Shown: positions 1,703 through 49,325 of the stretch, piece after piece
How the letters are laid out: each line of letters opens with the position of its first letter
How positions within the stretch are numbered: position 1 is the stretch's first letter
NCBI RefSeq assembly: GCF_007860185.1
Contig: NZ_SJPY01000002.1
Coordinates: 1-64,000 of the forward strand
Origin: Novipirellula aureliae
Lineage (GTDB): Bacteria > Planctomycetota > Planctomycetia > Pirellulales > Pirellulaceae
Reading direction: 5' to 3'
DNA: 64,000 nt
Translations under genes and position numbers: made by a program
Notes under the pieces: model-generated
The model's database searches: none
Seen by the model: only the letters and a program-made list of their open reading frames with translations
Told to the model about the DNA's origin: nothing

Positions 1703-2751
1703 TAGAGGTTCTCACGCATCTTTTGAATCAAATCTTGAAATTTCTGCCCAGTTAGCATTTCAAGTATGGCTTGATCGTTCGGGTTTTTTTCGTCCCACTT
1801 CCCTGCAAGCCCGGCCGAAGCAACAACGTGGGGGTTTTTGATCTCTTTTAACGTTTTTTCATCAACCCGGGGCTTCGAAAACTCATCTGGGATTACCGCC
1901 ACTTTCTTCCTAGCAAAAGCTTCCACCAGAGGCATCGAAATAGAGTCTCTAGAAATTGTACCGGCGTTCTGATTAAACGATTGGATCTCGTACAATAGTT
2001 GTGACCAAATAGAATTCGCGTTATCTTCAGCACACTGCGAGATCAAAGAATGAAGGAGTGCGAGCGAGACTCCAGCTTTTACGTCTAAATCAAAACCCAA
2101 AAGGTGAAAACACTTTAGAAATTCATGCAGCTCCCCGTCTTCGATTTCTACACCCTTGTTTGCTCGTTTGAGTTGTTTCCGAAATGCCTTTAGCTTTTGA
2201 CGTTTCGCAACGTTGCTAAAGTATGCGAGTTCAACATTTCTAATAAACTCGCTGGCATCTTCAGTGTGCCTCGCCCATTCTAGGATTGTTCTCGTGTTGT
2301 CGATGTCTTTGGCACTAATAGGGCCGGTAACTAACGCGAAGTTGTCTTTCTTTGGCAAAAATTTCTTCGGGTCTCTAAAATCCGACCACGCCTGATGAAT
2401 TACCTCCGCAAATGTCGTGTCGCTTTCAGAAATTGTAATTGTGTGTTTTACTTGAGCTAAAAGACGAGAGACGCTCCCAGTTTGAGTGTTCTTCGTGAAT
2501 ACAACAAAATCGTCGGTATTATAGCCGTTTGCTTTTGCTTGCAGCTTTATCTTGGTGATGGGATCAGTCGCCAGGCTAGGAACACACCCACCCGTGAGCA
2601 TAAGTACGACAAACGAAGTCTGAACTCTAGTTTCAAAATTGACGCCTCCACCTCCCGACGAATATGGGTTCGAAAGCTCCTTGGCCAGATTATTTTTTCT
2701 TGGGACGCTTTTGCTTTGCCCCTTTCTTTTTGACAAGTTTTTTTTGGCCAT
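1702..2751 (-). CDS. Mrr/Cap4-like QxK dsDNA nuclease domain protein (Avs-type effector)
   Basis: 349 residues. A basic N-terminus is followed by SNPYSSGGGGVNFE (conserved Glu about 40), YNTDDFVVF (Asp 80/81) and LLAQVKH (QxK at 100-102), which together form the restriction-like nuclease core of the Mrr/Cap4 type. Residues 120-290 are helical and match the rest of the N-terminal effector module of Avs/STAND-like proteins. The tail, from HVVASAGLAGKWDEKN to the stop, resembles the segment that normally follows the NTPase, yet no P-loop is present. The catalytic residues look intact. It is the first gene of a leftward pair with the 788-1702 gene (TAATG overlap). Role inferred as a degraded or minimal anti-phage nuclease. 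Confidence 0.6.
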   Translation of the reverse strand: MAKKNLSKRKGQSKSVPRKNNLAKELSNPYSSGGGGVNFETRVQTSFVVLMLTGGCVPSLATDPITKIKLQAKANGYNTDDFVVFTKNTQTGSVSRLLAQVKHTITISESDTTFAEVIHQAWSDFRDPKKFLPKKDNFALVTGPISAKDIDNTRTILEWARHTEDASEFIRNVELAYFSNVAKRQKLKAFRKQLKRANKGVEIEDGELHEFLKCFHLLGFDLDVKAGVSLALLHSLISQCAEDNANSIWSQLLYEIQSFNQNAGTISRDSISMPLVEAFARKKVAVIPDEFSKPRVDEKTLKEIKNPHVVASAGLAGKWDEKNPNDQAILEMLTGQKFQDLIQKMRENL

Positions 2752-3342
2752 GCTTATTGCTTCTGATAAATTACCTGTCGGTCAACTGATAGGTTGTTGG
2801 AGAAGTGAAGGTATGTCATTCGTCTATTAAATTTTGTGGTGGCTCATGTTTTCGAGAATGGTAAAAGACAGTTAGGAACACTCACAAAGCCATTGCCCAA
2901 GTTATAGCAGATTAGAGTTAGGTCGGTTTAGAAACGGATTTCCATGGGTTCTAGGAAACGAAAACAGAGATAGGTCCAGATAGCACTGCGTCACCTGACA
3001 TGATGCTCTGTCCCTATGCTCCACTGACGAGGAGCTAATCAAGTGTGAGACAATTGCACTTACGACGCGGATAGCCCAGTTTCAGCAACGGCTACGTGAC
3101 CGTCAAGCGTGAAGAAGTTGCCTCTACGATGATATCCTTTCCACCTACGATTTCTCCAAAACAGTCTTGCTCCAGAGACCCCATCGGGTATGTCGATGGG
3201 GCAAGCACTTACGCCAGTTACTTACCGGATATCGGGGGTTAGAGTTTCCGACTCATCACAAATCGAAGCTGTGTTTAAATTGCGTCCTTTGGTATGCTCT
3301 TCTCGTCCCTATGCTCCTTGCACATGCGTCTGAGTAAATGCT
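2752..3342. other. Intergenic stretch without recognisable gene
   Basis: 590 bp with only short spurious open frames. The phrase GTCCCTATGCTCC occurs twice (near 3010 and 3305), suggesting a fragment of a dispersed repeat. It separates the accessory patch from the two-component operon. No RNA gene was recognised. Confidence 0.4.
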
Positions 3343-5103
3343 TCAACCGCTCGGCAATTCCAAAATGAACACCGCGCCGGTTGAGCAGTCTTTGTCAAAC
3401 AGTCGTCCAGCGATTGACTTGGCCATTCGATCGCACAGGGCCAAGCCAAGACCTACACCCGCAACCGCATTAGCCTTGGCGGTACGCGATTGGTGAAACG
3501 GCTCGTACAGACGTTTACGATCGACCGACGTGATTCCTGGGCCAAAATCTTGTACGCGGAATTGGATTCGATTCGCTGCTGGCCCAACAGAAAGAATGAT
3601 GCGATTGTCCGCCGACGATTGAGCGTATTTACAAGCGTTGTCTACAAGGTTGAAGAGAATCTGTTCAATGACAGCAGGTTGAGTTGACAGGGGCACGATG
3701 GCAACCGACGGAGGAACTTCGATCACCAATCGCATTTGACTGTCGTCTGCTCGCTCCATCAAACGACAGGAAAAGCGGCTTATTAATCCTTCTACCGTTA
3801 CGGTCTCGCTATGAATTCTCGCAGAACTTCGCTCCAGTTTCGCAAACAGCAGGACATTTTCGACTAAATGCGACAACCGATCTGCTTGAACCTTTAGCGT
3901 GTTGGCATACTGTTTTGACTTTTCTGGTGGTACCATTCCATCGGCCAACATTTCGGAATACATACGAAATGTGGTCAGAGGGGTGCGCAGTTCATGCGTC
4001 ACCGCGGACACGAACGCCGCTCGCCGTTCACTCAATCGCAATACTCCACGCAGCAGCAATGCCGATGCGAGTGCGGCGAGACCCAAGCAGCACCAAGCGG
4101 CCAAAAGGGATATCGAAAAGGCTGAGCTTCTAGCGGTAGCTGGCAAATCCATTGCAAGGCGGGCCAACATCGCTGGCCGGTCGATTACGAGTTGGACGGG
4201 GATGGTCGTCAGTGCCGTGCCGATCTTCAGTTGCGTATTGGGCGTTATCGCTTCAAACTGTACATTCGGCAATAACTCCGCGACTTCGTTTTGCAGTTCA
4301 TGTTCGATTTCCTGCCAATTCAACCAACAACACTGGAACACCATTCCGTTTTCGTCGTCGACTCGACGAACAAAGATTAACTTGCCATTCATCCAAGTGG
4401 GTTGCATCGGGACTGCTTGCAACGCATTCGATTTTGTCGGCAAGGGGGTATTGTTTTCCGTCATTTGAAGGCCGTAGCTCAGACTGTTGTTTAACAAACT
4501 TTGCTGCGTCAACTCCAACGTCGAAAGACGACGTTGACTATAGTCTTCATTGACACGTTTTGTACCGCGTGAAAGCTGTGCGTCAATTTTGTTGTCGTAG
4601 TTCAATGGTGGAGCCGAAGTTGCCAGTGAGTTGTTCGGTTCGGCATGGTCCATCTCAGTGCTCTGACGCAATAGCGTTTGGTAGTCAAAGGCCTGGTCCG
4701 CGAGTTGGATCTGCGATAGGGTTTGCTGACGCATCGAGTCAGGAGAGGAAATGTTGTTTTGGGCGTCAATCTGGAATCGCAGCAACACCAAGTTTGCGGA
4801 AGGAGAATGGATCTCCGAGGGGAACCGGTAGAAGTACGGTGGTCGAGCTGCTTCATGAATGACCAATGGCAACATTTTCAAATCCATGCGGTACAACGCG
4901 CTGCTGATTCGCTCTTGCAGTTCTGCTTCGCGGCGTGCCATTTCGGTTTCTGCTCTGTCAGATTCACGAAGGCCATCAAGGCGAATGGTCTTCAAGCTGA
5001 GCCAAGACATGGCGATGACAATCGCCAGCAGGCAAACGCAAAACAGCGTCCAGATTTGCCAGGGCTTTTTCACTGTTTGGCCTCGAGCGAATGGGCTGTC
5101 CAC
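3343..5103 (-). CDS. Membrane-bound sensor histidine kinase
   Basis: 586 residues. One membrane helix lies near residues 17-37 and a second near 330-350, enclosing a roughly 290-residue extracytoplasmic sensor region with no recognised domain. The kinase core follows: H-box AVTHELRTPLTTFRMYS with phospho-His about 370, N-box NLVDNACKYA about 487, G1 box DFGPG about 519, and G2 box GVGLGLAL about 549, so HisKA plus HATPase_c are complete. It is expected to phosphorylate the response regulator encoded just upstream, whose 3' end overlaps this gene by 34 bp. It is the last gene of a three-gene leftward operon. The signal sensed is unknown. Confidence 0.9.
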   Translation of the reverse strand: MDSPFARGQTVKKPWQIWTLFCVCLLAIVIAMSWLSLKTIRLDGLRESDRAETEMARREAELQERISSALYRMDLKMLPLVIHEAARPPYFYRFPSEIHSPSANLVLLRFQIDAQNNISSPDSMRQQTLSQIQLADQAFDYQTLLRQSTEMDHAEPNNSLATSAPPLNYDNKIDAQLSRGTKRVNEDYSQRRLSTLELTQQSLLNNSLSYGLQMTENNTPLPTKSNALQAVPMQPTWMNGKLIFVRRVDDENGMVFQCCWLNWQEIEHELQNEVAELLPNVQFEAITPNTQLKIGTALTTIPVQLVIDRPAMLARLAMDLPATARSSAFSISLLAAWCCLGLAALASALLLRGVLRLSERRAAFVSAVTHELRTPLTTFRMYSEMLADGMVPPEKSKQYANTLKVQADRLSHLVENVLLFAKLERSSARIHSETVTVEGLISRFSCRLMERADDSQMRLVIEVPPSVAIVPLSTQPAVIEQILFNLVDNACKYAQSSADNRIILSVGPAANRIQFRVQDFGPGITSVDRKRLYEPFHQSRTAKANAVAGVGLGLALCDRMAKSIAGRLFDKDCSTGAVFILELPSG

Positions 5104-14361: not shown

Positions 14362-14689
14362 TAGGACCAAGCGGAAGATGAGTGGCACAGGCTTCCAGCC
14401 TGTGATGCAAAAAACACAGATTGGAAGCCTGTGATGCAAAAAACACAGACGGGAAGCCTGCGATGTAAAAAACACAGACGGGAAGCCTGCGATGTAAAAA
14501 ACACAGATTGGAAGCCTGTGATGCAAAAAACACAGACGGGAAGCCTGCGATGTAAAAAACACGGACGGGAAGCCTGCGATGTGAAAGACACAGACGGGAA
14601 GCCTGTGATGTGAAAAACACAGGCTGGAAGCCTATGATGTGAAAAACACAGGCTGGAAGCCTGTGCCACTCATCTTCCGCTCGATCCTA
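14362..14689. repeat. 29-bp tandem repeat array with terminal inverted repeats
   Basis: A GATG(C/T)(A/G)AAAAACACAG unit recurs at exact 29-bp spacing (GATG at 14404, 14433, 14462, 14491, 14520, 14549, 14578, 14607, 14636), each unit carrying GGAAGCCTG. The array is bounded by a 35-bp inverted repeat, 14362-14396 and 14655-14689, with 33 matching positions. Successive units differ by a few substitutions (T-G versus C-G, GCAA versus GTAA). There are no unique spacers, so it is not CRISPR. It fills the pyrG to DUF1844 gap. Two frames on the minus strand stay open only because the unit lacks stops. Confidence 0.9.
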
Positions 14690-36947: not shown

Positions 36948-37064
36948 TGCAATAAATTGCGATAAATTAGGCGCAATAAATTAGGCGCAATAAATTAGGC
37001 GCAATAAATTAGACGCAATGAAATTAGGTGCGATGAAATTAGGTGCAATGAAATTAGGTGCGAT
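36948..37064. repeat. 14/15-bp tandem repeat (AATAAATTAGGCGC)
   Basis: About nine head-to-tail units. The left part has 14-bp GCGCAATAAATTAG units; the right part has 15-bp GTGCAATGAAATTAG units, so the unit has expanded by one base. AT-rich, between two protein genes; it may create a curved upstream region for the following GYF_2 gene. Confidence 0.85.
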
Positions 37065-37136
37065 GACACGAGCTCAAGGAAGTCTGTACAATGAACGCGT
37101 TGGTTTGTTTCTTGGTCTGGTTGAAAAGGGATCGGC

Positions 37137-41857: not shown

Positions 41858-42097
41858 TCGGCTTCTGCCGCTACGGAACCCGGCAAAAGGTTCCTCCGCT
41901 AAACCGCCTGCCCATCGGACTGCGCGTTGAGCTTACGAGCCGTGCAACTGGAGCATTTTGGCCTTTGGACCCGAGTCAAACGGAATGAACACCAATGCCA
42001 AAAGGGCTGATATCCACTACGAAAACCCTTGATTTCCAACTATACTCTGCGTACCGTCGATCGACTCCTATTCCCTTGCTCCTTTTTGGCGACCACG

Positions 42098-43633
42098 ATG
42101 AACCGACTATTGATGACAACTTTTTTGCTGACCGCTACCTTGCTGCCCACCGTCGGCCAGGCCCAATTCGAAGGAATGAAGTATCGCATCCCATCGGATG
42201 CCAATTCGTTGATTCTCATTAACGCCGAAAAACTGTTTGGTTCCCCTGTCGCCGACCGCGATCGTTGGGCGGCCCGTCGCCAAGCTGCCTTCGACGCTGG
42301 CATCTCGGCGTTACCACCCGATGCAACCGAGGTGATGTTGGTGGGCCGAATCGATCACGAATTCGGGCAATCGATTTGGGAAATGGGGATGATGAAACTA
42401 AAGGCGGATCGCAATATCTCGACCGCTGCCCAACGTTTTGGTGGAACGATGGACACGATCGCCGATCGCTCCGCGGTTCGTTTACCCGATGATCGCTATC
42501 TCGTCCAAATCATGGGCAATTTGGTTGGGTCCTATACCCCTGCAAATCGCCAAGACGTTACCCGATGGCTCAAGTCGACCGATGTCGGTACCGCTGCGGT
42601 ATTATCCGACTACTTAGAGCAAGCATTCGGATACGCCAATAAAGTGGGCACGCCAATCGTGATGGCATTGGACGTCGAAGGTTTGCTTTCGAAAACCGCG
42701 ATTAAGCATAACATGGATAAATTCGAATCGCTGAAGGATTCCGGCCTTTCGCCCGACGACTACGCCAATTTGATCGCTGGAGCAAAGGGGGTCACGCTCG
42801 GAATTACGGTCCAGGACAAAACGGTCGGTGCGATTCGAGTCGACTTCGCCGAATCACCTGCCATGTTGGAAAAAGTTGGCAAAGATCTGATCATCGAAGT
42901 GTTGCAAAATCAAGGTCTGATGATCGAAGATTTCCGAGAGTGGACACCGTCGGTGAGTGGTAATGCGTTTATGCTTCGTGGGTTGTTGTCAACGGGAGGC
43001 ACTCGCCGCGTGTTGAGTGTGCTTTCCCTGCCACCGACACTTGCCGATTCGATGGTTGAGATGCAATCGCCGGGGAGCGATCAGGAAGGAACGGCGAAAC
43101 GCATCGCGACCCAGCAGTACTTTCAATCGATAACGACGCTGCTCGACGACTTGCACGAAAAACCTCGCCGCGACAACGCGAAAACGTTTGGCCAAGCTGC
43201 GGTTTGGTATGACCGCTACGCACGCAAAATCGATCAATTGCCAATCTTGAACGTCGATGAGGCGATGCTTGATTTTGGTGCCAATGCAGCGAACCAACTT
43301 CGCAGCGCCGAGATGATGATGAAGGGTGTCGGGATGCGATCATCGCTTCGTACCAAGAGTAATAATGCGTCGTCCGGTGGAGTTGCCTACAGCTACGGCG
43401 GTTACCGAGCGGGTAACGGATACAATGGCTACATGTATGGTGCTCCATCCGTTTCGGTCGGTGTCAACGCAATGAATGCATCCCTGATGGAAAAAGGACG
43501 AACCGATGCGATCATTCGCAGCCAAGAGCGGACTTCTGGGGCGGCTTCGGTGATGCAAATCTGGCAACAACTCGACGAAGCGACCGCGGCAATCCGCCGC
43601 GAAATGGTGAACAAATACAGCGCCGACTTCTAG
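42098..43633 (+). CDS. Secreted hypothetical protein
   Basis: 511 residues from ATG 42098; upstream in-frame alternatives add an unlikely leader. Signal peptide MNRLLMTTFLLTATLLPTVGQA cleaves before QFEGMKY. The mature protein has a 400-residue mixed alpha/beta part (YRIPSDANSLILINAEKLFG, LSTGGTRRVLSVLSLPP) and a Gly/Tyr-rich segment near 450 (AYSYGGYRAGNGYNGYMYG). No family recognised; probable envelope protein. The stop TAG runs straight into the 39-bp repeat array. Confidence 0.7.
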   Translation: MNRLLMTTFLLTATLLPTVGQAQFEGMKYRIPSDANSLILINAEKLFGSPVADRDRWAARRQAAFDAGISALPPDATEVMLVGRIDHEFGQSIWEMGMMKLKADRNISTAAQRFGGTMDTIADRSAVRLPDDRYLVQIMGNLVGSYTPANRQDVTRWLKSTDVGTAAVLSDYLEQAFGYANKVGTPIVMALDVEGLLSKTAIKHNMDKFESLKDSGLSPDDYANLIAGAKGVTLGITVQDKTVGAIRVDFAESPAMLEKVGKDLIIEVLQNQGLMIEDFREWTPSVSGNAFMLRGLLSTGGTRRVLSVLSLPPTLADSMVEMQSPGSDQEGTAKRIATQQYFQSITTLLDDLHEKPRRDNAKTFGQAAVWYDRYARKIDQLPILNVDEAMLDFGANAANQLRSAEMMMKGVGMRSSLRTKSNNASSGGVAYSYGGYRAGNGYNGYMYGAPSVSVGVNAMNASLMEKGRTDAIIRSQERTSGAASVMQIWQQLDEATAAIRREMVNKYSADF

Positions 43634-43644
43634 GAGCGGCTCTA

Positions 43645-44424
43645 GTAGCGGCGTCTCGCCGAGACGCCGAATACACACAAATCGTAGCGGCGTCTCGCCG
43701 AGACGCCAAATACACACAAATCGTAGCGGCGTCTCGCCGAGACGCCGAATACGCACAAATCGTAGCGGCGTCTCGCCGAGACGCCGAATGCGCGCAAATC
43801 GTAGCGGCGTCTCGCCGAGACGCCGAATACACACAAATCGTAGCAGCGTCTCGCCGAGTCGCCAAATACGCACAAGTCGTAGCGGCGTCTCGCCGAGACG
43901 CCGAATACGCACAAATCGTAGCGGCGTCTCGCCGAGACGCCGAATGCACGCAAATCGTAGCAGCGTCTCGCCGAGACGCCAAATACACACAAGTCGTAGC
44001 GGCGTCTCGCCGAGACGCCGAATACACACAAATCGTAGCGGCGTCTCGCCGAGACGCCGAATGCACGCAAATCGTAGCAGCGTCTCGCCGAGACGCCAAA
44101 TGCACGCAAATCGTAGCGGCGTCTCGCCGAGACGCCGAATACACACAAATCGTAGCGGCGTCTCGCCGAGACGCCGAATGCACGCAAATCGTAGCAGCGT
44201 CTCGCCGAGACGCCGAATGCACGCAAGTCGTAGCGGCGTCTCGCCGAGACGCCAAATGCACGCAAATCGTAGCGGCGTCCCGCCGAGACGCCAAATACAC
44301 ACAAATCGTAGCGGCGTCTCGCCGAGACGCCGAATACACACAAATCGTAGCGGCGTCTCGCCGAGACGCCGAATACACACAAATCGTAGCGGCGTCTCGC
44401 CGAGACGCCAAATACGCACGAGTC
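43645..44424. repeat. 39-bp tandem repeat array, 20 units, with 117-bp higher-order period
   Basis: Twenty consecutive 39-bp units start at 43645, 43684, 43723 and so on to 44386. Each has the 19-bp perfect palindrome GGCGTCTCGCCGAGACGCC (or a one-base variant) and an A-rich tail ACACAAATC or ACGCAAATC. The AGCAGCG variant at the unit start appears only at units 6, 9, 12 and 15 (43840, 43957, 44074, 44191), so the array has expanded in trimers of 117 bp. Because 39 is divisible by three, several frames stay open on both strands; none is likely to be translated. It fills the gap between two genes. Confidence 0.92.
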
Positions 44425-44476
44425 TCGGAGAGACTCGCCTACTGAGCGTGCACGCGCGAGGCTCGGAGAGACTCGC

Positions 44477-45583
44477 CTACTGGGCATCCAGATCGGCGAG
44501 ATTCCCGCTGATTGATGTTTGGCCCCATTTGGCAGACAACATCACGCTATTGATCCCGGAACCGATCCCCAACATCGCAACTTGGTTGCCTGCTACCAAT
44601 TCGCCGCGAGCGGCGGCGGCAGCGAGCGTGAGCGGCAGGGCCACCGATCCGGTGTTCCCCAACTTGGCAAACGTGGCGCTGTCGTTTTCGATCGAAAACC
44701 CCATCGCCTTGAGCATTTCGACGCGGTGACGGGAACCAACTTGGTGACAAACGGTTCGATCGAAATCGCCTCGCGACAAACCCGACTCGGATAGCAAACG
44801 CTCCAACCCCGCAACGCCCGTCGCGATACCCTCCGCCATCAAACGTTCCGAATCCGTGTCCATCAATGGCTGCATCCCTGAACCGGCTGAATCTTGGTCG
44901 CTGCGGCACAAATCATTGAATTCGGTTCTCGCTTCGGCAACCGCCGTTTCGATAAGAGTGCTCGACGGAGTTTGCTTATTCGACGAAGACAAATCACGAT
45001 GCACCAACAACCATGCACAACTACCCGAGCCGATCGTGAGCGAAGCGAAAGCTGGTTTGACGCTTTTGCGGGTCAGAGACGAATCGGCATTCAAACGGGA
45101 GATGGTTTGTTCAAGTAAGGGACGACTGTTTTCGGTCCCGACCACGATCCCGGCACGAATGGCACCCGATTCGATCATCATCGCGATCTGGACCGCTCCG
45201 TTCATCACCCCTAAACAGGCGTTCGAAACGTCATAAACCCAGCAATCGTGGGGCAAGCCCAGCTCATGGTGAACGCGTGACGCCGTTGCCGGCTCTAAAA
45301 AGTCTCGACAAACACTGGCGTGAATCAGACAACCGATCTCCTGACGGTCGATTCCCACGGCATCGATCGCCGCATTAGCACTTTGGACACTCGGACCGCT
45401 CGGCATTGTCCCGCGTGACCAAACCCGTCGCTCATCGATCCCGCTCATCAACGCTAGCCGACCTTCGGGCAGCTTTAGACGCGAATAAAGAGGCGCTAAA
45501 TCGGTCTCAATTTTCTCGCTGTTCCAAATCTCATCGGGAATTATCGCCCCAATCGATTCCAAGCAAACGTTATTGAATTGCAT
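44477..45583 (-). CDS. 3-oxoacyl-ACP synthase III (FabH)-like ketosynthase
   Basis: 368 residues. Thiolase-fold condensing enzyme. Catalytic Cys123 in VYDVSNACLGVMNG, His in TVCHQVGSRH and Asn in KLGNTGSVALPL form the FabH-type Cys-His-Asn triad. The N-terminus carries FNNVCLESIGAIIPDEIW. It is more divergent from canonical FabH than a fatty-acid housekeeping copy would be, so it may serve a specialised acyl chain. It runs leftward and ends in TAG, which together with following bases is part of the GCGAGTCTCTCCGAG repeat flank at 44430-44480, meaning the repeat contributes its stop codon. Confidence 0.85.
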   Translation of the reverse strand: MQFNNVCLESIGAIIPDEIWNSEKIETDLAPLYSRLKLPEGRLALMSGIDERRVWSRGTMPSGPSVQSANAAIDAVGIDRQEIGCLIHASVCRDFLEPATASRVHHELGLPHDCWVYDVSNACLGVMNGAVQIAMMIESGAIRAGIVVGTENSRPLLEQTISRLNADSSLTRKSVKPAFASLTIGSGSCAWLLVHRDLSSSNKQTPSSTLIETAVAEARTEFNDLCRSDQDSAGSGMQPLMDTDSERLMAEGIATGVAGLERLLSESGLSRGDFDRTVCHQVGSRHRVEMLKAMGFSIENDSATFAKLGNTGSVALPLTLAAAAARGELVAGNQVAMLGIGSGINSVMLSAKWGQTSISGNLADLDAQ

Positions 45584-48817: not shown

Positions 48818-49325
48818 AAAATCGCTAAATGTCTAATGGAAGGGTTGAATGAAAGGGGGCCGATGCTCGATTACGATTCGGCTACTATTCGGCTGCTATT
48901 CGGCAAAAACTCGATTGGAGGCTGCCGCAGGAGGTTTATTACCGTACAACAAAACGCCGGCTCCGCCGAGGAGCCAAGGTTCGTCTAATAGGCGAATCGA
49001 ACGTTTTTTTCTGTCAAGACGGTTTCGCTACCGGCACCGACACAAACCACGTCTCCAGCGTGGCTCCCGCACCACGAAGAATGAGGGCAAGCACTTTCGT
49101 GGCTGGGGCTTCCAGCCGCAGCCTACTGGGGGCAAGATGCGTGGCTGGGGCTTCCAGCCGCAGCCTACTGGGGCAAGATGCGTGGTTGGGGCTCACTGGG
49201 GGCAAGAGGCCCTAGCACTCTGTTGCCAAGCCGAAAATCAAGCGGTGACGCAGCACTAGTGCTGCGATTCAAGTTTTAAAAATTTCACCCATTGATTTCC
49301 TCTCTCGACCTGCCGATAATTTGGA
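48818..49325. other. Intergenic region with 42-bp tandem repeat
   Basis: Contains about 2.5 copies of a 42-bp unit (GCGTGGCTGGGGCTTCCAGC plus CGCAGCCTACTGGGGGCAAG) at 49098-49200, the third copy one base shorter and degenerate. No protein-coding or RNA gene recognised. Confidence 0.6.
49098..49200. repeat. 42-bp tandem repeat, 2.5 copies
   Basis: Units begin at CGTGG 49098, 49140 and 49181 (spacing 42, then 41). The core GGCTGGGGCTTCCAGCC is palindromic and recalls the GGCTGGAAGCC hairpin in the element at 7779-7932. Confidence 0.7.

Follow-up and report, generated by a model that had tools for sequence, protein, structure and literature searches.

The DNA analysed here (the window) comprises the first 64,000 nucleotides of contig NZ_SJPY01000002.1 of Novipirellula aureliae. 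It contains an array in which 20 units, each 39 bp long, follow one another head to tail on the plus strand (43645–44424), each unit consisting of a 24-bp forward REP and a 15-bp spacer. The unit starts (43645, 43684 and so on to 44386) are separated by steps of exactly 39 bp, as stated in an initial annotation made from the sequence alone, and TRF run on the window describes positions 43645–44419 as a repeat of period 39 with 19.9 copies, 93% matches and a score of 1305. All 20 units open with GTAG, which is followed by C and by two 8-bp stem arms separated by a 3-nt loop, the stem being shorter or imperfect in units 6, 9, 12, 15 and 17. The first forward REP (GTAGCGGCGTCTCGCCGAGACGCC, 43645–43668, plus strand) starts 12 bp past the end of the upstream ORF. 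A perfect 19-bp palindrome (GGCGTCTCGCCGAGACGCC) had been attributed to every unit, but is present in only 15 of the 20 and absent from the five units just named. Predicted hairpin energy is −13.1 kcal/mol in the 15 units with the perfect palindrome, and −6.5 to −10.5 kcal/mol in the other five; a hairpin finder picked 18 of the 20 units, its threshold being a stem of 7 bp without mismatches or of greater length with no more than one. The loop base is G in the array units and T in most of the REPs listed elsewhere in the genome, and the 19-bp palindrome is perfect only where this base is G, as in the array. A general repeat search requiring arms of at least 12 bases returned no inverted repeats in the array, the stems of which (8 bp, with 3-nt loops) lie below that minimum.

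The array is situated between two converging genes. Upstream, an ORF of 534 aa (42029–43633, plus strand) runs towards the array; neither Pfam nor NCBIfam gives a match for it at E ≤ 0.1, and its start codon is uncertain, because the DNA match to each of two congeners starts about 130 bp inside the ORF as listed. On the other side, a ketoacyl-ACP synthase III-like gene (44477–45583, minus strand; NF006720, E 8.5e-129, above cut-off) converges on the array. Two inverted REPs follow the 20 forward ones, so that the window contains the two REPs in inverted orientation that characterize a REPIN or BIME. Both are of a type related to the forward REP. In the first (GTAGGCGAGTCTCTCCGAGACTCG on the minus strand, 44419–44442), the first six plus-strand bases are the last six bases of unit 20. 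The second (44457–44480, minus strand) has one mismatch, and the TAG in its tag serves as stop codon for the synthase gene. ORFs of 281–359 aa crossing the array were taken as spurious, and a coding array was rejected; long ORFs cross it because 39 is a multiple of three. In an Rfam search of the window, only a tRNA, outside the array, reached the cut-off.

The 24-bp window REP, searched with up to three mismatches, has 339 matches (241 plus, 98 minus) on several contigs of the 7.27-Mb genome. The same search with a T-in-loop query returned 393 matches (286 plus, 107 minus), a set overlapping the first, and the reversed-pattern controls of these searches gave none in the source genome. Exact matching yielded 77 REPs of the GTAG-NCGCG type and 142 of the GTAG-NCGAG type (controls: 0). 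The GTAG at the unit starts, the two inverted REPs and these hundreds of genomic relatives had been overlooked in the initial annotation. Changes in the stem tend to be paired: across 36 distinct REPs, selected with a pattern that fixed the inner stem only, outer-stem positions were Watson-Crick paired in 84.7% of cells, versus 59.3% (maximum 68.8%) when the 3' arms were reshuffled; this figure is inflated, as the sequences are related and the loci were selected. The corresponding values for other genomes, 88.6% versus 63.6%, are non-independent, since the pattern with which most of these sites were chosen fixes three of the four outer pairs. The window unit is thus a GTAG REP, with GTAG at the foot of the hairpin, a dispersed high copy number, a site at a gene end and paired stem changes. 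It shares its anatomy with the GTAG-tagged REPs described by Di Nocera et al. (2013, PMC3733652), whose account includes Rhodopirellula baltica among other organisms, and notes that in that species the REPs fall into different families and tyrosine transposase genes are numerous.

The array had initially been called satellite-like and its structure uncommon in bacteria. This frame is wrong, since the unit is a REP of which hundreds of copies are scattered over the genome, together with a transposase-like gene flanked by REPs (see below), and the tandem reiteration of REPs with flanking DNA has already been described (PMC3733652, PMC3116915). The misreading is a tempting one, and the neat bacterial "satellite" at this locus is, in fact, a mobile-element cluster. 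An ordinary local satellite or minisatellite that arose through slippage during replication, independently of any mobile element, would accord with the exact phase, the 93% identity between units and the block duplication in units 10–15. As a full account of the locus, it is nevertheless refuted by the 339–393 genome-wide occurrences of the unit core (0 in the controls), and is made very improbable also by the existence of other arrays with different spacers and by the REP-flanked transposase-like gene. Slippage could explain later growth, and the local satellite survives as a possible growth mechanism of the array. The array is an ordinary case of the known GTAG REP/BIME cluster, and what is unusual is mainly the number of neat tandem arrays in this genome.

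A looser REP pattern was found by exact match in 21 of 241 genomes of the family, the source genome included. Among the matches listed from public genomes, the REP pattern occurs in Rhodopirellula europaea 6C, Neorhodopirellula pilleata and further planctomycetes, and also in Chloroflexi, Lentisphaerae and others. Two congeners have one and zero matches genome-wide. Their best matches to the two flanking genes (71% DNA identity and 80–81% protein identity) have no such REP in the flanks examined; these genes sit on different contigs in the congeners and are not neighbours, so that no single empty site can be defined.

The Pfam Y1_Tnp model, used as a finder of the cognate transposase, identified 13 genes in the source genome, none of which has a window-type REP in the flanks examined. 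One contig carries three near-identical copies of a Y1 transposase, together with part of a fourth, in about 21 kb (C8:49976–70618), again with no window-type REP in the flanks examined. Among the loci listed from 13 other genomes, 30 in each of two scans, some Y1 genes adjoin GTAG hairpins of other families. Eight of the source genome's own Y1 proteins were compared by tblastn with 120 REP loci listed from public genomes, and matches were obtained in four of these loci. Superfamily REPs lie close to the gene in L169, L138 and L127, and the REP in L216 is about 1 kb away. REPs of the window superfamily stand on both sides of a RAYT-like gene in the MAG loci L169 and L127; in L138, the REPs follow the RAYT-like gene, and the sequence ahead of the gene amounts to only 97 bp.

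The source genome encodes a relative of the RAYT-like protein of L169 (C7:203796–204443), 52% identical and nearly full-length, which was detected only by way of L169. The gene encoding this relative is flanked by arrays of GTAG-CCGCG-type REPs, with a period of 50 bp on one side and 39 bp on the other, and the first REP downstream supplies its stop codon through the TAG of the tag. The sole match of the C7 gene in NCBIfam at E ≤ 0.1 is the REP-associated tyrosine transposase model (NF047646, E 1e-14), and the sole match of its protein among PDB sequences at E ≤ 1 is TnpAREP 4er8 (E 0.13). The protein falls below the curated cut-offs (54.7 bits versus 80 for NF047646, and 13.3 versus 23 for PF01797), and the gene is, therefore, referred to here as RAYT-like, on the basis of its flanking REPs and its motifs. 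M134-P135, H137 and H139, Y197 and N201-P202 (HxH, Tyr and NP motif) are kept in all five aligned proteins; the roles of the HUH, Tyr and NP residues are treated in PMC2817692. An AlphaFold2 model of the L169 relative (P0001, three rows) has a mean pLDDT of 43, too low for the model to be usable in judging a Y1 HUH fold. The stem of the window REP (GGCGTCTC) differs from the stem beside the C7 gene (CGCGTCTC), and the pairing of the two is at the superfamily level. The C7 gene can thus be considered, from its sequence context, the putative cognate RAYT flanked by REPs of the same superfamily, the stem being not identical. The setting resembles that of E. coli BIME-2 and TnpAREP, in which tandem BIMEs adjoin the RAYT gene (PMC2817692). 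The REPs of E. coli are longer and bulged, whereas those of the source genome have short perfect stems, like the REPs assigned to group 3 or subclass 2.5 in the accounts cited (PMC8266576; PMC6006769).

Other REP arrays of the source genome provide a record of how such structures grow. A set of 42 clusters was assembled from 40 sources (the window, 18 loci, L269 and a further 20 loci), which were chosen because matches lie or cluster there; 39 of the 40 hold a cluster, L051 being the one without, and proportions among the clusters are not genome-wide estimates, owing to this choice of loci. Thirteen clusters consist solely of forward units, 24 switch from forward to inverted, five are mixed and none starts with an inverted unit; 33 of the 37 all-forward or forward-then-inverted clusters have three or more forward units. 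Spacings within clusters range from 28 to 124 bp, spacers vary from array to array, and many of the genomic REPs lie in tandem arrays with periods and spacers of their own. The spacers were compared with the flanks of the arrays in the 34 head-to-tail arrays with at least three forward units. The start of the spacer matches the 3' flank of its own array over a mean of 10.2 nt, versus 2.3 nt for other arrays, and the end of the spacer matches its own 5' flank over a mean of 4.6 nt, versus 2.1 nt (p = 5e-5 in both cases, the permutation floor). These matches imply that the arrays expanded at their present sites, each from a single REP and the adjoining DNA. In the window, all 15 nt of the spacer match the 3' flank with one mismatch allowed, the last 6 nt lying inside the inverted REP; the end of the spacer matches the 5' flank over 2 nt only, the level seen for other arrays.

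In the source genome, the base before GTAG in the first unit is A or C in all 42 clusters (30 A, 12 C); at the sites from other genomes (L109–L228), it is C or T in 97 of 110. The A or C before GTAG represents a lineage-specific extension of the tag. E. coli TnpAREP requires the REP tag and hairpin for cleavage and, in vitro, cuts single-stranded DNA at REPs and rejoins it, cleavage occurring at CT (PMC8266576). CT would accordingly be expected just before GTAG, and the base counts reflect this weakly. CTA precedes the first GTAG of the window array and is found in five of the 42 clusters (the window included), with CCA (six) and ATA (five) equally common. CT cleavage as the sole insertion rule is unsupported by the base counts ahead of GTAG.

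Within the array, a CAGCG variant occurs only at 43840, 43957, 44074 and 44191, in units 6, 9, 12 and 15, exactly as previously noted. The chance of four of 20 units forming an arithmetic series is 57/4845 for any step and 11/4845 for a step of three, for a variant that was chosen post hoc. From this rhythm, the initial annotation had deduced a 117-bp higher-order period and growth of the array by duplication of trimers. Both ideas hold locally. Among the seven lags listed, identity is highest at 117 bp (94.3%), and 104 bp match exactly at this lag in units 10–15 (43996–44229, plus strand), which consist of two successive trimers and form the clearest block duplication of the array. The period is clear in units 4–16, where lag 3 gives 1.5 mismatches per unit (p=0.0004), this region having been picked post hoc. 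Neither idea extends to the whole array. There are 12 distinct unit types among the 20 units, and permutation of unit order over the whole array gave p=0.28 for the best of lags 1–8, p=0.20 for lags 3, 6 and 9 versus the others, p=0.40 for the length of the longest identical stretch, whatever the lag, and p=0.36 for an edit-distance order test over all lags; with lag 3 taken alone, the length of this stretch gave p=0.049 and the mean mismatch p=0.039. In a higher-order repeat, n-mers are more alike than neighbouring monomers across the array, and this was not observed here (p=0.28 to 0.40 over all lags). The third-unit rhythm is taken as a local block duplication in the middle of the array, and the whole array does not form a 117-bp higher-order repeat.

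Regular spacing and a variant recurring at every third unit in mid-array might also suggest an array akin to CRISPR, or a genuine higher-order satellite whose functional unit is 117 bp long. CRISPR is ruled out by the near-identical spacers, unique spacers being expected in such an array, and a 117-bp unit is opposed by the order of the units at lag 3, which is not significant over the whole array with all lags tested (p=0.28, 0.40 and 0.36); this reading is scarcely credible. Copy number and unit order could also be wrong in the assembly, the genome being a 40-contig draft and short reads, if used, being unable to span 780 bp of repeats. An assembly artefact is, nevertheless, unlikely, as the 12 unit types among 20 units and the many arrays of other periods oppose wholesale invention, although the order of the units could still be wrong. 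A literature search, mainly outside subscription papers, yielded no account of higher-order order in REP arrays.

Order tests were also run on the 19 arrays with at least six complete units, the window included, with p values uncorrected for 19 tests. A lag of more than one unit was significant in L275 only (best lag 6, equivalent to two trimers, p=0.005), and L044 had a significant lag of one unit (p=0.0003). L275 (C2:442179–442630), a 30/31-bp REP array in which the unit lengths mostly recur in the order 30, 31, 31, is a better higher-order case than the window's array. L049 (C8:128.4–129.1 kb) contains nine REP pairs of 71 bp, with a CGG stem variant that occurs twice, four pairs apart.

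The array is very probably a GTAG-tagged REP cluster that arose from a facing pair landing through the action of a RAYT in trans, the forward REP and the interior of the pair having then been copied in place to 20 units. This explanation is built on the anatomy of the REP, its dispersed copies, the REP-flanked RAYT-like genes of this and other genomes, the facing partners, the REP-free gene ends of the congeners and the spacers matching their own flanks. A facing REP pair (a forward REP and an inverted partner of related type) would have landed between the two converging genes, mobilized in trans by the genome's RAYT; the RAYT-like gene on C7 is the candidate for having moved this copy. On this explanation, its protein would bind and cleave the single-stranded GTAG-CGGCGTCTC REP, and the first duplication may have resulted from RAYT cutting and rejoining single-stranded DNA. 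Later units would have been added or exchanged in blocks, sometimes three together, by slippage or unequal recombination. A second mechanism has also been invoked for REP clusters elsewhere (PMC3116915).

Pseudomonas fluorescens SBW25 offers a close parallel, its REPs being described as forming facing pairs, evenly spaced arrays and ordered tandem clusters in which the DNA next to the REPs is included (Bertels and Rainey 2011, PMC3116915). The largest arrays named in that account consist of 12 GI and GIII sequences, whereas the forward REP reaches 20 units here, and most of the inverted partner is outside the repeat unit here, unlike the arrangement reported for SBW25 (PMC3116915). The breakpoints of the units were considered in the 21 of 34 arrays with an inverted partner, 17 of which have a recognizable core, the starts of inverted REPs being good to about 1 nt. 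In six of these 17 arrays (window, L048, L050, L272, L287 and L289), the unit ends about 6–9 nt into the first arm of the partner. It is conceivable, albeit rather unlikely, that the RAYT in this genome also builds tandem arrays, cutting at the GTAG foot and 6–9 nt into the facing inverted REP, with the resulting "half pair" rejoined head to tail; the suggestion comes from the unit ends in these six arrays and from the occurrence of 34 head-to-tail arrays of one REP superfamily. With its hundreds of superfamily copies, many of them in tandem arrays with spacers that preserve the breakpoints, its RAYT-like gene flanked by REPs, and two congeners nearly free of this REP, this genome constitutes a good natural data set on REP clusters.

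The array might also have been retained for a function, in the protection of 3' ends or the termination of converging transcripts, or as a site for gyrase or another DNA-binding protein. It sits between converging genes, one of which takes its stop codon from an inverted REP, and the RNA folding of the array is far below that of shuffled sequences (z = −21.7, 20 shuffles). The gene context of the 42 clusters, based on rough ORF calls that ignored ORFs covering more than half of a cluster, is unidirectional in 22, convergent in 15 and divergent, the rarest context, in five. Binding of gyrase, IHF and Pol I has been reported for the REPs and BIMEs of E. coli (PMC2817692). Retention for function is opposed by the lack of a T tract (no run of T in the array exceeds 1 on the plus strand or 3 on the minus strand) and of any such REP beside the best match of either gene in the two congeners, and is, on balance, a doubtful reading. 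A canonical intrinsic terminator was rejected, the array hairpins having no T tract. For a REP cluster that landed and grew at this site as proposed above, the likeliest side effect would be that the two converging transcripts are protected at their 3' ends.

The TAG of the tag serves as a stop codon in nine of the 84 cluster flanks, with one antisense ORF omitted and ORFs covering most of a cluster ignored. When all ORFs are counted, one of the 42 clusters (L279) lies inside an ORF reaching at least 150 nt past both sides, and 11 are partially overlapped by some ORF, including the window's two and one antisense to the RAYT-like gene; some of these ORFs are plainly spurious. L279 (C4:61000–65500) contains a five-unit array at 2173–2328, within an open frame of 1731 nt (1988–3718). 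This array is possibly intragenic, or the true start of the frame may lie downstream; its position inside a long open frame suggests that the REP family is not strictly intergenic.

A second REP family, with a GTGG/GTAG tag and a GGCTTCYAGCC core, has 549 exact matches in the genome. Three more distant relatives are present in the source genome, two of which, RAYT-like genes, lie among second-family REPs (C9:184301–184891, L268; C1:1255128–1255757, L267), and one genome thus contains at least two REP/RAYT sets. In the window, a second-family REP (GTGGCACAGGCTTCCAGCCTGTG) opens an array of about nine 29-bp units at 14382–14668 (TRF 14397–14665), which ends in an inverted partner, and the second-family core GTGGCTGGGGCTTCCAGCCGCAG is found at 49098–49193 in a 42-bp unit present in 2.3 copies. 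A further tandem repeat at 36949–37066 is AT-rich, with periods of 14 and 28, and its sequence is unrelated to the REPs.
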